Shown: piece after piece, positions 42,966 through 53,309 of the stretch
Position numbering within the stretch: position 1 is the stretch's first letter
Layout of the letters: the number at the start of each line of letters is the position of its first letter
From: Daucus carota subsp. sativus
Lineage: Eukaryota > Streptophyta > Magnoliopsida > Apiales > Apiaceae
DNA length: 64,000 bases
NCBI RefSeq assembly: GCF_001625215.2
Contig: NC_030385.2
Location: 1,977,135-2,041,134, forward strand
Reading direction: 5' to 3'
Made by a program: the position numbers and the translations under genes
The notes under the pieces: model-generated
What the model was told of the DNA's origin: nothing
Database searches by the model: none
The model's input: the letters and a program-made list of their open reading frames with translations, nothing else

Positions 42966-43751
42966 TCAAAGTTTAAGGGACAAGTCTAGCTTTTGAAAAT
43001 CCTCTTGATGATTTGTCTTTTTCAAAAGGCTCCCACTCTCACACCTATTATATCCTCTACCACCGTCCCCTCCCGGAGAAAACTTCCACACACTATCAAA
43101 CCTAGCAGCACCGCCGCCAGACGGCGGTGCTACAAGGTGGTAACTATTCTCCGGTGGTTGCGCCAGCCGGCCTATAACAGGAGGCCTGTAGACGGTCGGT
43201 TTTGTCCTGTTTTGTTGTAGTGACGGTACTAAATGACCAAAACCATTTGAGGAGAAATTATAAGTAACTTGACTAGGCTTATGGATCATGGAATGGACCT
43301 TGATTCCAAGAGACCTATTGTATGAGCCATGCAAAGGAAGAGAAGCCATGCTAGGGTTTTGGTCCATGAAGGAGGATGAGGATGAGTCCATGAATCCGAT
43401 CCTTTGTCGTCGTTTCGCGATGGTTCTCTCTCGTTTGTGAGCGTTTTGGTGGCCTCCGAGAGCTTGTGAGCTGTAGAATTTTCTTTGGCAATAGTTGCAT
43501 GAGAAGACTCGAGGCTCGGATGAGTTGTTAGCTCTTGGTGAATATGTATGATCATTCTCATCATCTAAGTAGTTGATCATGAGATTGAGATTATGATCTG
43601 CAGGTTCTTGATGTTTAATCACCGACTCGTCTGGATCAAGATCTTGAACTTGGCTGCAGCTGGAGAGGCTTAGATCTAGCAAGAGATTAGGGGTTTTGAG
43701 TTCTTGATCATCATGGCCATCCACTTGTTTTCCTTCTCTTTGACTCTCCAT
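42966..43751 (-). CDS. single C2H2 zinc-finger repressor with EAR motifs (ZFP1/3/4-like)
   Basis: Intronless, 261 residues from the ATG at 43751; the longer frame upstream has no ATG. The finger uses Cys85, Cys88, His101 and His105 and carries the plant motif QALGGH (96-101) in [20 protein letters not shown]. Two EAR-type repressor motifs are visible: LDLSLSS at about 25-31 and LDLSLKL as the last seven residues. Basic KRER/AKRRQR after the finger may be the nuclear signal. Plant single-finger proteins of this kind recruit TOPLESS-type co-repressors and act in organ and trichome development. A TATATA sequence lies at 43797-43802, close to the start. Confidence 0.93.
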
Positions 43752-45354: not shown

Positions 45355-45885
45355 TATGTGTTAGTTGACGGAGATGTGATACGTATATTTTTAATTTTAT
45401 TTCTGAATAAAAATTCAATATTTAAATTCTTATTCAGAAAAAATTTAAAAATTAAATTTTATAAAAATATTAAAATGTGTGTCGAGTAGTGGACAAAAAT
45501 GTAAAAAATGAATGGGACGGACAGAGGGATTATTTCAAAAATTATCGAATTTGATATATAATTTGATATAAATAATTTTCTTTTGAGAAGAAAACGACGA
45601 TATATATGAGAGGGAGAGCGTTGAAATCAACTCGTTGTTAGGTCATGTTACATACTCCAGAGATAGCTATCACAGCTATAACGTAATCGAGTAATGAAGT
45701 TTCCTCTTCAATTGTCTTTGACAGAGAAGTTTCATTTCCTCTTCAATCACTTCTGCAGCTTCCTAGAGCTATAGATAGGAATCACATCATCAGATATGAT
45801 GGTTTCATATCAGTTACGGTACAATTTTATTTTCTACATTCATCACATTATCCACATCTATACTTTAATGATATACTAGCCTATA

Positions 45886-45904
45886 ACCCGTGCAAAGCAC
45901 GGGT
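45886..45904 (-). repeat. Helitron 3' terminal hairpin
   Basis: An 8-bp stem ACCCGTGC/GCACGGGT around a 3-base loop, six bases before the terminal CTAG. In Helitrons this hairpin marks the end of transfer. Confidence 0.85.
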
Positions 45905-47258
45905 GACCATATAATTTTAATTTTATTAATTTTCAAGCTTAATATCATTTTATTATGTTTTTTTATTATTTTCTTTTTTGAAATATTAGTGTTTTATTTT
46001 ATTAGTGTTTTATTATAATTAAATAAAATGATATTAAATTTTATTAATCGATTGGTTATATTCCCTTTTGAAAGTTTGTCTTGTACAATATTTTTATATA
46101 TTATAAAATAATAGTATGTACATTTAATATTTTTATTTTTCAGCATGCGCTAAACTCTAAAGTGTGGTTGTGTCGAGAAATGAATAAGTGTAGTTGTGTT
46201 GAGAATTGAATTTTGCATTAGACAATAACTCTTAATGATTGATCACAATTAATCAAAGCCTGATATACTTACTTGTCCATAGCTACTAAATAAAGCACCA
46301 ACCCGCTTCGGTCACCTGAAATTAAGAGGTTATTACTGCATTTTCTGAAGTTGAAATAACATTTACAAACCATTCAAATGTAAATATATTTACTAATTCG
46401 TACTCACATTATGGTCAATATCAGATACATAACGGTGCAACGAATATGTTGGTCTGTTTGAGCCTTAAAAGATTTTCAAACTTATCCGCTTCCTTTCCCG
46501 GTTCAAGTTAGTTCTTCTCTGTTAAAACAAAATTCCAAAATTAAGATATAAATCATATTGACATTGTAAGAATATACCTTATGAATGTATAATTTGTTAT
46601 TCAATATATTTGTTTCGACATCAGAAACAGGAAACCGGGGGCATTGACCAAGAAGAGAAAGTACAAACTCACAAAATGACAGTCTCTACAAGAGGAACAT
46701 TACAATTTTTTGCAGGAATGTGTTGAAAAAGAAAAAATTCAGTTGGTCAAAAGAAAAGAAAATAAAATGTGGTTTTCGATTTAAAATGAGAAAACTAAAA
46801 ACTTAATTCAAAAAATAAAAAAAAACATGAATTTCATTGATATTTTAAAGTTATAAATTGCTTGATTTGAAAATATATATTGAGATATATATTACTTTTG
46901 AGTAATATTATTTTATTTTATATTCAATTCTAATATACATTTTCATTGCACTATTTAATATAAAAATTCTAAAATTTAATTATGCTTGAACTTTTCTCTA
47001 ATATAAAAATGAATATCAAGTTAATTTATCAATATTTCAAGTGATACAATTAAGAAGACTGAGAACTATCTAAAAAAATAAAGTACCGTAATTCCGTAAA
47101 TCTCATATAATCTTGCAAAGGTCACAACGAAAAGAACCCCAACCAATTGGGAAGACCAAGCAAACAAAATACCATACAAACTACTGAGAAAGAGAAACTG
47201 AGACCTCAAATACTACCCCTTAACCATACATATATATAATAGCATGCAGGACTACCAC
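45905..47258 (-). other. 3' part of the Helitron, unassigned
   Basis: AT-rich. Two short stretches look exon-like on the minus strand (about 46275-46325, which reads KRVGALFSSYGQ in one frame before a GTAAGT donor, and about 46450-46540, which reads DKFENLLRLKQTNIFVA). Neither was assigned to a gene; both may be further captured pieces. Confidence 0.35.
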
Positions 47259-47419
47259 TAAACATCAGCCTTAGCAATTTTTGAGATACCAGGCCCAACA
47301 AAAGCCATAAACTCGAGCACTTGATCAACTTTCATGAGTTCATTCACCTCCTCCAGAGGGCACTGCACCCTTGACTTAAAGACACCCAGCTTTGGAATGA
47401 ACTTATCCATACAAATTGA
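47259..47419 (-). pseudogene. captured terminal exon of an unidentified gene
   Basis: After an acceptor (TATATGCAG) the minus strand reads CMDKFIPKLGVFKSRVQCPL, then EEVNELMKVDQVLEFMAFVG, and reaches a stop at 47259 after KIAKADV. Codon use looks normal, so it is probably the last exon of a host gene. I do not recognise the family. It may belong with the coiled-coil-like end of the previous exon (EANKKLKE). Confidence 0.5.
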
Positions 47420-47541
47420 CTGCATATAGAAATTGGTTGGCCAGTATGAATAGGCACATGTATTTGTGCTCGCTAATATTCATTTATTATTCTAACAAAA
47501 TCCTACTGCAATGTGAATATGATTTAGGTAGTTAAGCTTAC

Positions 47542-48025
47542 CTCTTTCAGTTTTTTATTCGCCTCTTTGTTTGTATTTTGCGTTCAGCTACTAAGCTCTC
47601 GGCGATCTGCAACATCTCCAGCACATTTCCAACAACATCTGCAGTAGTTTTGTAGTTCACTATTTCTTGCCTATTGGAATACTGTAGGTAGAAAGTTTTC
47701 CCTCGGACCTGAGCCGCTTCAGCCTATTAAACCAAAACAAAAAGAAACATGTACACAGATTAGTTAACAACAAATATTATCAAGCATTAATACAATTAAA
47801 AGGGGCTAGGTGACTAAGCCAAACGGAAGAGAATGAGAAAACTGATGCACGCTTACAAATTCAATAAAAGCTTGGTTTCGGTTGGCTCCAATATTACACT
47901 TGGTGTTGACAACTTTACCAAATGGTTTACCAAGTTCAATCAGTTCCTCCTCAGTGCACTCTCATGGAAAATTCCTCAGATGCAGGACCTTGGACGGAGG
48001 TTGTGTGTTTGAGCAGTTTTAAGGC
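47542..48025 (-). pseudogene. captured polypyrimidine-tract-binding protein fragment (RRM1)
   Basis: Exon 48025-47857 reads TQPPSKVLHLRNFP and then, after an in-frame TGA where PTB proteins have Trp, ECTEEELIELGKPFGKVVNT and NRNQAFIEF up to a GTAAGC donor. Exon 47723-47542 reads AQVRGKTFYLQYSNRQEIVN, then TTADVVGNVL. This is RRM1 of plant PTB splicing regulators. The peptide between FIEF and AQVRG is shorter than in PTB. After GNVL the sequence departs from PTB and continues as EMLQIAESLVAERK, apparently from another gene. It cannot encode a working PTB protein. Confidence 0.85.
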
Positions 48026-48867
48026 CTATAAGAATTAAACAAAAAACATATAGAGGTTGCCAGTGTGATGTAGTTTTATTGCTAAAAAACACAGGAGTGG
48101 TAAATAACAGCACTGAGACCATCACAATCGTCAGTGAAACAAGGATAAGCAACAACTCTAGACTGATATCTATCATCGTATTTTAAAAGAAGGCGATTTC
48201 AAGATACCATGCATTCAGTGAATAATAAAATGGTATTAGAGTTACCTTCATTGGTTTAACGCAGACACGAATTTAAACTACTCGAAACAGATGACATAAC
48301 ACTGCAACAAAAAACAAATTAGTTAATACACTTTGTCCCCTTTATCAAAAACTATTATAAATATAACATCCTCTTCTACTCTATAAAACCAAACTATCAT
48401 ATTAAAACGTATAAAAAAGAAAAAAGACAAATCCGCTTATCAATATACTGTAAAATTATGTACCGAAATTATCGATAAACAAACCTGTCTTACAGCCAAA
48501 TAAATTGTAATCGTCCGCCGTCCAAGTAAAGTGACTAAGAATTTGTGAATTAGAAGCATCAAATAGTGACAAGATACCTAATAATAAGATCTCTAACAAC
48601 GCGCAAGCATATACATATAAGATCTGTATGAATTTCAATTTCACAAATACGTGGATAGATACAATAAGAGATACAAAGAATCGGGGAAACAGAAGGAGCA
48701 ATAAGCACTATTACCTTTGTAGACTGACGATGAAGCTAATTTTGCCCCTATATTCGAATATCTAGGGTTTGGATACCTCAATATAGTGGATGCACATTTC
48801 GTGTTCATGGTCAAGGCTGATTTTCGTTAATAGAAAATAAAAGGAAAAAATGTGATATTAAAATACT

Positions 48868-49578
48868 CTTGAAACCGTCCATGTCAGGCATATGGACATC
48901 ACTGATAACTAAGTCAAACTTGTCCTTGTTTTCCCTTAACATCTGCAATGCCACTACTGCTTGACTCGTGGTCGTTACTGCCAACAAAACAAATGCCATA
49001 AATATACCTAAAGCGATAAACTTTACTAAAGCCACGAAAGGGAAACCAGAACATAAAAACAAACAAATCCACATTGTGACAAACATAAAGTAACTAAATC
49101 AATACCGGTCTACAACATATAAACATCTGAAGCATGCATTTGTGATGAACTCAAGTTGCATATTAGTAGAACAGCAAACAGAAAGCTCACAAAAAAGCAC
49201 AATTTATTTTGAAGTTGTACAGATTATCATAACTCACTGAACTGAAAACAATCATAGTATCATCCAAATCAAATTCTCTTGGTGGAATCCTAGAAGTAAA
49301 TTCTCAAACAGATTGGCAGGAAAAAAGAAGAAGCAAGAGCAATTAAATATCCAGGAAGAACAAGTAAAATCTGGAAAAAAATAATAAATAAAGTTGAAAG
49401 CAGAAAGCTTTGAGCTTTAATTTGAAAGATGAAAACCCAGAAAGAAACCATTGTACTGGCAGCGCCTGAGCAAAGTATCCAAGAGTCTAAGACAAGTGGG
49501 GTCATCATCAACAGCAAGAACTCTCATGCCCACAGGGAACTGCTCTTTTTCACCATCAATTTTGTCATCTACTGTCAT
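48868..49578 (-). pseudogene. captured 5' end of a type-B response regulator (ARR1/ARR2-like)
   Basis: Exon 1 (49578-49449) encodes [20 protein letters not shown], then [20 protein letters not shown] and QYN. Exon 2 (48977-48868) encodes [14 protein letters not shown], then [16 protein letters not shown]. These are the first two exons of the receiver domain of cytokinin type-B response regulators, including the DDD pocket and the phospho-acceptor Asp in [11 protein letters not shown]. The remaining receiver segments, the GARP DNA-binding domain and the activation region are absent. After DGFK an extra A precedes GTATTT, where the parental donor would be expected. Sequence upstream of the ATG is also captured. 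Confidence 0.88.
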
Positions 49579-49994
49579 TCTTGCAGAGGCAGAGGATGAA
49601 GATTATCAAGACAAAGATTTGGTATTTATCAAGAAAAGAATGGAGATAAAAAGAGAATGTTGTAATAAAGGAGAGAGTCAGAGGGGTAATTAGATAGTTG
49701 TGATTGGCTACATAAAAGGAGAGACATTTGCTTTTATAGCAAGAGAATGGAATCATAACACCTTTTGTCCGGAGTGGATACTGCAACTTCCCACCCCACT
49801 CTGTCTTTTACTTTTTTATTCCATACATTTATCACCTAATTATGTTCATTATTCTATGCTGCTAATTTTGTTAACATTTGCTTTACCTTTTTCAAGTCCT
49901 TACCAATTTCTTATTTAGAAAATGTCAGTTATTTCAAAAATTGTTTCCAAAATTTCACACAAATTTTAGTGATAATGAGTGTTTGGCTCCTCAC

Positions 49995-50060
<66 letters not shown>
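49995..50060. repeat. (AAT)22 microsatellite
   Basis: Twenty-two uninterrupted AAT units inside the Helitron, between the response-regulator and alanyl-tRNA synthetase fragments. The poly-Asn frame across it is an artefact. Confidence 0.95.
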
Positions 50061-50061
<1 letters not shown>

Positions 50062-50481
50062 TGATCCTTCTTATACACATAATCATCCAATTAAAATTAA
50101 TTATATATTTACCCCGTTATCTGGAGTTGGTGCCACTGCTTTACCCCTAAGATTACATAGAACACATACAAATAGTACACTACTAAACTCCAACCGAATT
50201 GACAAAAAAGTAAGCCCGTGAGGATTTTAAAAACCTCATCAACATATCAATATCAGAACACAGATCTCTACTTCAGGTTAGAAACACTTTCACATGTTTC
50301 AATGACTATTTAAACACTTATAGTTTCAAAAGTGATATACCTAAATTGGACACAACACTATTAATGATTCTTCAGAAACCCGACAAATCATTTATTTTGT
50401 CATGTAAACAATACAAAGACACGAGATGCTTTAATCACGAAAAAGAAACAAAGGGTAGAAAACCTAATATGAAGCTCTTAC

Positions 50482-51514
50482 CTTACAACCAAATGGCAAT
50501 ACGCGTTTCTTTGGAAGATATTTGAGCCACAAAGCCTTAGCTTCAGTATCAGGGTCAAGGCCAGACTTTTCATCACCACCAAAATAGGTAGCATAAATTC
50601 GATCTTCAGGTAATTTGTACACCTGATATCAGTAACCGTTAAGAAACTAATGTCTCGATTTTTGCTCATATATTATATATTGTAGCTCAATTTGTTAACC
50701 AAAAAACATTAGAACATGCCTTGGTGAGAAGCTCCCATGCCCACGAGAGGAGCAATTACCAAGCATCTCAAAGAAAGTGTGGTGATAAGTATCTTTACGA
50801 ACATCATCCAAATCATTATGTTTCCCACCCGCTCTTATACACTTCTGTGTATTGCAAGCACGTGTTAGCTTACTCAGCTGAGTGTTGGGATCAGCAGTTC
50901 CTAAAAAGATAGGCTTGTATTGATTCATCCCTGCAACAGAACACCCAATATAAACCATCAAATAACAATTCAACACTCTAATCACCTAAAAACCTGTCAA
51001 AATAATCCAAACACTTCACCGCATAATCTTCAAAATACTATAACAGAAAAATAGACATCAATAAAACACTAAACTATAGATTTAAAATATATAAATAAAC
51101 TTCGAATATATATATAACTCTCACCATTCCTATATAGTAAAAATCCATCAATTCAACCTCAATTTAAATGGCGAATAACAATTCACAACTGTCGATAAAA
51201 ACATCACTGAATACTTTTCAACATGCTGAAACAGTAAACAGCTGGCTATGAACCTTAAAACTTTACTACAAAGATCACAAACACCACAAATTGCAACACT
51301 ATCAAACAGTAAAAACCAATAAATTACCACAGTAAAACCAGAATCACTTGAAAAACATCACGCACAACAGACCTGCGTTAGCGAAGAGCAGAGTAGGATC
51401 ATTGTGAGGAACAACAGGGCTGGATTTCCAATTAACATGCTGCTTATCTTCGAAAAACTTGATAAAAGTGTCGCGAACTCGATTCGCGGGCCACTCGATT
51501 TCTTCGGAGCCCAT
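50482..51514 (-). pseudogene. captured first three exons of alanyl-tRNA synthetase
   Basis: Exon 1 (51514-51373) starts [20 protein letters not shown] and reaches [11 protein letters not shown]. Exon 2 (50930-50720) reads [20 protein letters not shown] and [13 protein letters not shown], then loses about 11 codons with a frame change before WAWELLTK. Exon 3 (50622-50482) reads [20 protein letters not shown] and RVLPFGCK. This is the start of the class II catalytic core of AlaRS; full proteins are over 900 residues. Its leader and probably promoter (51515-51840) are included. Exon 2 ends AAG|GCATGT, so the intron would be GC-AG. Confidence 0.9.
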
Positions 51515-51881
51515 GGAATCGGTGATTGGAGATTGCGAAGCGCGGCGGAGAAAAGCCCTAATCGGGAAGCAAAACTACGTCGGAGAGAGGGGAAGTGATA
51601 TGAGAGAATGAGGTGGAGGCGCTGAAGTGAAACTACAGGGTCTGCTTAAAAGATGAGTGTATCTTATGAAATTTGTAGTATTTGTTTTTGTTTATAAAAC
51701 TAATACTATTAAGAGATAGAATGTTAGCAGGACAGAGAGTTTTAGTATTAGCTTCTGGACGATAAACAAAACGACCAAACCAAAAAATACAAACAAAAAA
51801 TGGGACTACAAAATATACCTATGTTGGCTTATTATAGTATAGTATAGATTAATGTAACCGATGAATACTCGTATTTTAGTA

Positions 51882-52162
51882 CTCCTTCCGTCCCATCCAT
51901 TTCTTTACACTTTCTTTTTTGGGATGTCCCACCCAATTCTTTACATTTCAAAACTTACCAAAAATAGTTAATGGGTCCCACCACTTCTCTACTTTTCTTT
52001 CCTTTTCACACTACTTTTACTCCACTATCCTCTTTTTATACATTAAAAATCAATGGGTCCCACCACTTTCTCCACTTTTCTTCCTCTTTTCCACTACTTT
52101 ATACATATTTCTTAACCTCCGTGCCCAACCCATTCGATAAGAAATGGGTGGGACGGAGGGAG
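51882..52162. mobile_element. Stowaway-like MITE, near-identical to the one at 18778
   Basis: Begins CTCCTTCCGTCCCATCCATT and ends AATGGGTGGGACGGAGGGAG, with TA at 51880-51881 and 52163-52164. It is the reverse orientation of 18778-19066. It lies 33 bp from the Helitron 5' end. Confidence 0.9.
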
Positions 52163-53309
52163 TATATAAGATACTTTTTTCTATTTTTGACAAATGGAAA
52201 AAGATTTCACTACTTGGATATAAAACAGCCGGGACAAACTCCCAACTGTTGATACAACCAGGTGGTAAACCAAATAATATACTAAAAATAATTAGATGAT
52301 TTGTTTCCGGATCGTTTAAAACATAAAATTTAAAAATTCTTAAAGCTAAAAACGAAATTAAAGACATCTCAAGCGATCCAAATTGCACAAACATCTCTGG
52401 AAATAGTAACATCGCAATTGACTATATCACATAAAAACCATTGATAGACCAATGTTCAGAAACACCAATCACATAAATTGAGATTAGAGAAACGGCACCA
52501 CAGCTATCTATATGTCGAACACCAGCTATAAACCTGCTGAAGGCACCCGAGCCAACTACATGTCGAATAGTATTTATAGAAATGCCGAAACTGAAACCCG
52601 TGAAGGATAAACAATCTTTGGTTGTGAAAAGTGAGCTCTTGCAATAATCACCCCCATCCCAGATTCGATACAGTCAATCATAACTAAACAAAAACATAAC
52701 AAAACAATCCAAAATGAGAGATGAAACAAACACTCCAAGAGAAGAGACACACAAACACCCAAAAGATTTGGTTTTATTGAGAGAAAATTAATGAGAGTAA
52801 AAGATAATGAAAGGGTTAGGGCTTTCCACCGGAAAAAACCCGTGGAAGCCCTTCGATTTACTTGAAAATGGACAAAAGTATACTGGATACTTGAATTCAT
52901 GTATCACCGCACAACATAGCAACTGTATCTCTGAACCTGCCTGTTCCTTTCATTTCACTCGTTTCCATATAATTTATTATATTGTTGAGCTAGTATTTCA
53001 GTAATCCTATACTATATAATTGTATTTTCCATTTTAAATATTTAAATAATTTCTGGAGCTATATTTTATAAAACCCCTTAAAATGCATATGTCCAACCCT
53101 CTGTCCCAAACATATACATAAGGGAGTAGAATAATAACTCAGTTCAGCTCATTGCATATGGGTGTAAATTTTAACTGAACCAAATCCGTATCATAAAAGA
53201 GTTGAGTTGAATTAAGCAAGTCTAATAGTTGAAATTAAAATAGAAATTATAACTATAATCAATTTTCAAACATATATAATATAAATAAAATTTAATAAGA
53301 AATTATGAA

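Follow-up and report, generated by a model that had tools for sequence, protein, structure and literature searches.

A carrot Helitron with fragments of several host genes, and its probable stepwise growth by internal gains

How does a mobile element come to carry pieces of several unrelated genes? This question is raised by a locus in a 64,000-nucleotide stretch of the carrot genome, Daucus carota subsp. sativus (C5:1977135-2041134, where contig C5 is NC_030385.2; the whole stretch is called the window). Positions 45876-51848 of the window, minus strand, are a non-autonomous Helitron, complete with 5,973 bp. The way in which Helitrons pick up genes is debated, the two models being end bypass and filler DNA. 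The observations given below favour the latter: the element probably belongs to a recently mobile family and has grown stepwise, new sequence being gained by break repair with copied unlinked DNA and the result then being amplified. We estimate the probability of this reading as roughly 0.8.

Read on the minus strand, the element follows a flanking A and begins with TCTATACTATACTATAATAAGCC (TC at 51848-51847); it ends with ACCCGTGCTTTGCACGGGTTATAGGCTAG (CTAG at 45879-45876), followed by a flanking T. The 5' TC and 3' CTAG, which agree with the TC and CTRR ends of Helitrons, are present in all four complete copies found in the genome (441,086,747 bases in 11 contigs were searched), and all four are inserted between A and T, with no target-site duplication visible by inspection. 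About 10 bp before the 3' end the window element has a hairpin whose stem is 8 bp long; its fold has z = -3.67 and was matched by 0 of 200 shuffles. With up to three mismatches allowed, the window has a single occurrence of the terminal 30-mer and a single one of the 21-mer; shuffles match in 0 of 100 and 1 of 100 cases, respectively. The base-level reading, the copies and the shuffle tests place both ends where they had been proposed in the initial annotation, which was made from the sequence alone. Terminal inverted repeats and target-site duplication, the marks of Pack-MULE and CACTA elements, were not seen in the window element by inspection. Its open reading frames are short, no Rep or helicase domain was found by Pfam in seven scanned fragments, and in a genome profile search no Helitron_like_N match falls inside it among the best 150 of 344 candidates. 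Since it has no recognised Rep/helicase gene, it is non-autonomous.

The element and its parts are as follows.

45876-51848, minus strand: complete Helitron, 5,973 bp, TC...CTAG between A and T, no recognised Rep/helicase gene.
51651-51848, minus strand: 5' terminal region (element positions 1-198), beginning with TCTATACTATACTATAATAAGCC; six other loci continue differently past its end.
50138-51650, minus strand: alanyl-tRNA synthetase (AlaRS) block, 1,513 bp, with Pfam and PDB matches; donor C6:35669245-35670867.
50127-50137, minus strand: 11-bp remnant of a first-exon fragment (MAPKLGA), longer in the C3 and C2 copies and in relatives.
48868-50126, minus strand: type-B response-regulator block, 1,259 bp, with a PDB match to ARR1; donor C1:40304718-40305983.
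48800-48867, minus strand: older element sequence separating the response-regulator block from PTB, common to the C3 and C2 copies and present in whole or in part in L044, L047, L048 and L049.
48280-48799, minus strand: PTB fragment, part a, from the upstream/5' untranslated region to just past the start codon, 93% to the C4 donor locus.
48009-48279, minus strand: 271-bp filler from an unnamed C3 locus, replacing 17 bp of PTB, 91% to C3:51986121-51986389.
47619-48008, minus strand: PTB fragment, part b, RRM1 exons, with TGA before ECTEEE.
47491-47618, minus strand: unnamed fragment (EMLQIAESL...), abutting PTB at the point where the PTB donor diverges.
47481-47490, minus strand: 10-bp stretch, instead of which the C3 and C2 copies carry about 1,970 bp with fimbrin exons.
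47261-47419, minus strand: unnamed exon of 53 amino acids (SICMDKF...KADV), with matches confined to family elements.
45876-45904, minus strand: 3' terminal hairpin (ACCCGTGC TTT GCACGGGT) and CTAG end, with a shuffle-tested fold.

According to the initial annotation, three or more unrelated host genes had contributed fragments. Those it named, AlaRS, the type-B response regulator and PTB, are borne out by domain and structure matches and by alignment to donor loci on C6, C1 and C4 with further exons downstream; the 271-bp filler and the MAPKLGA remnant beside the response-regulator block are additional to its list. The AlaRS block contains the 5' untranslated region, a start codon near 51514 and exons 1-3 with introns, exon 2 having a deletion. 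In the response-regulator block there are the upstream region, a start codon near 49578, exons 1-2 and an AAT repeat at 49995-50060. The presence of introns in the captured blocks means that the captures were made from DNA. Pieces related to the EMLQIAESL... fragment are present at several other loci. The exon that had been ascribed to an unidentified gene is indeed present and still has no name: it has five genome matches at E <= 0.001, every one in elements of this Helitron family, and no match in Pfam, PDB or a collection of proteins of about 220-700 amino acids.

The donors do not lie intact in this order; they are on different chromosomes of the same genome, namely C6 (AlaRS), C1 (response regulator), C4 (PTB) and C3 (the unnamed gene of the filler), each other than the chromosome of the window copy and with unrelated surroundings. 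At three of these four source loci further exons of the gene follow downstream. No Helitron was seen on the donor side, though no systematic search was made. The AlaRS donor, which has later exons past the captured part, differs from the block by 25 mismatches in 545 positions and 42 in 977. Sixty-two differences from it are common to the window and C3 copies, as against 8 found in just one, and therefore the AlaRS capture is older than the split between these copies. The donor also has an intron stretch of about 400 bp between AT-rich 11-bp repeats (L033, reverse complement 2168-2589) that the captured copies do not have; either the donor acquired it later or the element lost it. The response-regulator donor has 24 mismatches in 1,256 positions (1.9%) and a downstream frame of 356 amino acids with a domain which we take to be MYB-like. 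Besides the donor, only the window copy and the C6 copy match this block over a long stretch in the genome. The PTB donor, C4:36756617-36757589, is followed by exons that are presumably the later RRM exons. Outside the four complete copies, the C3 donor is the sole other match of the 271-bp filler.

Other elements sharing the ends, on whose existence the initial annotation depended, were found. The three further complete copies are on C6, C3 and C2, all at unrelated sites; each of the four has A and T beside its ends and otherwise different surroundings. The alignment of the C6 copy (5,967 bp) covers the element with the flanking A and T and stops there. From the window copy this one is distinguished by a single substitution and, within the AAT repeat, a 6-bp gap, and the C3 (6,768 bp) and C2 (6,769 bp) copies are one 1-bp gap apart. 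Such near-identical copies point to recent movement. The four copies form two subtypes, window with C6 and C3 with C2, the latter without the response-regulator block. Between the subtypes, 33 of the 4,678 sites that could be aligned are different (0.7%, the sum over five blocks, two of which overlap by 11 bp).

The order of events was reconstructed from six other loci carrying PTB (L043, L044/L013, L047, L048, L049 and L054). In all six, the 5' region ending ...CTCATCTT runs into CGCCCTCTG... and the MAPKLGA fragment (shortened in L054), at the place where the four complete copies have AlaRS. At the position of the filler in the complete copies, all six and the PTB donor likewise have an uninterrupted start of PTB. 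When the genome was searched with the AlaRS and response-regulator blocks, none of the matches listed fell at the six loci. Since AlaRS, the response regulator and the filler are absent from these loci, all three are derived gains. Where the window and C6 copies have the response-regulator block, those on C3 and C2 retain the 91 bp that it replaced. So the filler and AlaRS, in either order, were gained before the split of the subtypes, and the response regulator would have followed after it. Conversely, the stretch with fimbrin exons is absent from the window and C6 copies. Most of it is also present in L013, and therefore it was lost in the window/C6 subtype.

All three resolvable gains are inside the element, with the same ends before and after. 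By inspection, the AlaRS joins have homology of 1 bp (T) on the left and 4 bp (AAGC) on the right, and about 45 bp of the element were lost; the response-regulator joins have 0 and 0 bp, with 91 bp lost; and the filler joins have 0 and 1 bp, with 17 bp lost. Internal gain with a short loss fits break repair by copied filler and not end bypass, because the latter adds sequence at the 3' end. A RepHel protein encoded elsewhere would drive insertion of the Helitron between A and T. An ancestor that already had PTB and other fragments gained the 271-bp filler and the 1.5-kb AlaRS block; at a later step the 1.26-kb response-regulator block would have been gained, and about 2 kb with fimbrin exons were lost. 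As the likeliest mechanism of the gains we infer that the element was broken internally and mended with DNA copied from an unlinked donor (filler DNA, template switching); transposition would then amplify the enlarged element.

Several observations weigh against this scheme. The joins of the three gains have short homology, of 0-4 bp. Two more PTB-matching loci, C6:35576163 and C3:41057061, stand outside the comparison of six. For the insertions of C2 and the window, the search for a paralogous empty site was negative, the flanks used to query the genome matching only themselves. An autonomous partner was not identified among the RepHel matches and end pairs listed. Finally, the divergence of the response-regulator block from its donor (1.9%) exceeds that between the subtypes (0.7%), a relation not expected if the block had simply been captured late from the assembled allele. 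For the block to have entered after the split, the captured donor allele must have been distinct from that in the assembly, or another element must have served as an intermediate.

The latter possibility implies exchange: the response-regulator block, and perhaps others, would first have been in another Helitron and then been copied over by recombination or template switching. In favour of this are the excess divergence and the element L010 (C9:8282999-8293091), which shares the first 351 bp of the window element including the AlaRS join and then has a different body; a shared start with another body suggests that exchange between elements happens. However, a third element with the response-regulator block was not found among the long genome matches, and a diverged donor allele gives the same numbers. 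Exchange as the source of these blocks is unlikely.

A start codon and the sequence preceding it are found in four fragments, those of AlaRS, the response regulator, PTB and MAPKLGA. The captures may favour transcribed gene starts in the sense direction, such regions being preferred templates for repair and the elements spreading promoters with first exons. However, neither the fimbrin piece nor, to the extent observed, the 271-bp filler is a gene-start capture, and such a preference is rather doubtful. It is quite unlikely that the element is a working chimeric gene, or that it yields small RNAs which act on the genes for AlaRS, the response regulator or PTB. The three fragments do have the same reading direction and include gene starts, and effects of small interfering RNAs on donors were reported for maize (cited in PMC13317346). 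However, the captured coding parts are broken, by the deletion in AlaRS exon 2 and by the TGA in PTB. Moreover, a frame of 57 amino acids at the PTB junction has 21 matches in the protein collection, each covering 61% of it and none extending across the junction.

End bypass, in which transposition misses the 3' end, continues into an adjacent gene and halts at a chance terminator so that the gene becomes the new 3' part, is a published model of Helitron capture (PMC6544945). It could account for the oldest fragments, which lie outside the three resolvable gains. However, beyond the three resolvable gains, all of them internal, the 3' end is identical with and without the gain, and the donors are not neighbours of the window copy. 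For the growth of this element it is therefore very improbable. The suggestion that the locus is an immobile pseudogene mosaic produced by ordinary rearrangement, whose sole support is the mixed content, is refuted by copies with exactly identical ends at four unrelated sites.

The family extends beyond the complete copies. The best 40 of 1,340 first-look candidates were scored in a search with the 5' end (149 bp), and the best 40 of 564 in a search with the 3' end (335 bp). Sixteen of the 40 scored 5'-end matches pair with a scored 3'-end match on the right strand within 20 kb, at spans of 4.7-11.8 kb, and there are no wrong-strand pairs. Some of the end matches stop short of the terminal base, and the base-by-base comparison is that of four elements. 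Family members were picked for scanning by rank of the 5'-end match, not at random, and L010, L014, L016 and L017 were scanned in part. L014 (C2:53888405-53898380) has pieces of an Argonaute-type Piwi domain and a ubiquitin-conjugating enzyme. L016 (C6:11541263-11551533) has a piece of an isocitrate/isopropylmalate dehydrogenase together with a Pif1 2B helicase domain, the latter perhaps left over from a RepHel gene. In L017 there is a cyclin piece, with VHS and PHS1 matches below the Pfam cut-off; also below the cut-off are a CH piece in L013 and a MATH match in L015. A 30-amino-acid piece of L010 matches SnRK2 kinases, and the frames of its scanned part have no Pfam match at E 0.1; a VHS-like piece was noticed there by eye only.

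Some further observations concern single loci. The RepHel match at C8:1613264 was considered as the autonomous partner and rejected, as the neighbouring element C8:1605997-1610665 has its 3' end before it. The C6 copy (L009) is preceded, at a distance of about 40 bp from its 5' end, by another Helitron-like 3' end with hairpin and CTAG. In the window, a stretch at 51880-52164, whose inverted ends read TACTCC...GGAGTA, resembles a miniature inverted-repeat transposable element and is presumably Stowaway-like; about 30 bp separate it from the Helitron's 5' end. A C2H2 zinc-finger gene (42966-43751, minus strand) starts about 2.1 kb from the Helitron, which is upstream of it; the closest named relative of its protein is in Apium (75%). 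The locus C7:38992106 is the best match in the genome to Cyclin_D1_bind, a family which we take to mark EXECUTER1-like genes; the locus may be the carrot Y2 candidate gene. A Helitron insertion in the Y2 candidate has been reported (PMC10581907). No link to the present family was found, the nearest end match among those listed, C7:38857042, being about 135 kb from C7:38992106.

In the carrot, a single plant genome holds the piece-free relatives, the piece-bearing copies and the source locus for three gains at base resolution, which bears directly on the debate about gene pick-up. No paper was found on Helitron "sequential capture", nor on gene capture in this carrot family, subscription literature being mostly outside the coverage. 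Several other scanned elements of the family carry host fragments, so that carrot could be a eudicot counterpart to maize.

Comparison with known systems places the element among the Helitrons. Pack-MULE and CACTA elements have terminal inverted repeats and target-site duplications, neither of which is visible here. Like the carrot element, they carry fragments of host genes (PMC13317346; PMC1947982). The initial annotation considered multi-gene capture worth describing in a eudicot. The fragments stand, but such Helitrons were already known in a eudicot, as 35.25% of the gene-capturing Helitrons of Brassica napus hold two or more host fragments; that result comes from a genome-wide exon-matching survey, with captured sequences of 92-1,270 bp (PMC11986588). 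In Spodoptera, Hel1A acquired sequence stepwise by internal gains with identified source loci, which was taken as support for filler DNA (PMC6544945). However, its gains are about 70-100 bp with junctions of 2-13 bp, whereas carrot has two kilobase-sized gene starts and 0-4 bp. The maize Helitrons share with the carrot element the CTAG 3' end, several host fragments, stepwise capture with additions also in mid-element, and internal loss (PMC3288121). The carrot element differs in being from a eudicot, and in that three gains can be followed at base level through the piece-free relatives, the copies and the source locus. Stepwise capture is thus already known from maize and an insect, and multi-fragment Helitrons from Brassica napus; the carrot case is unusually well resolved.

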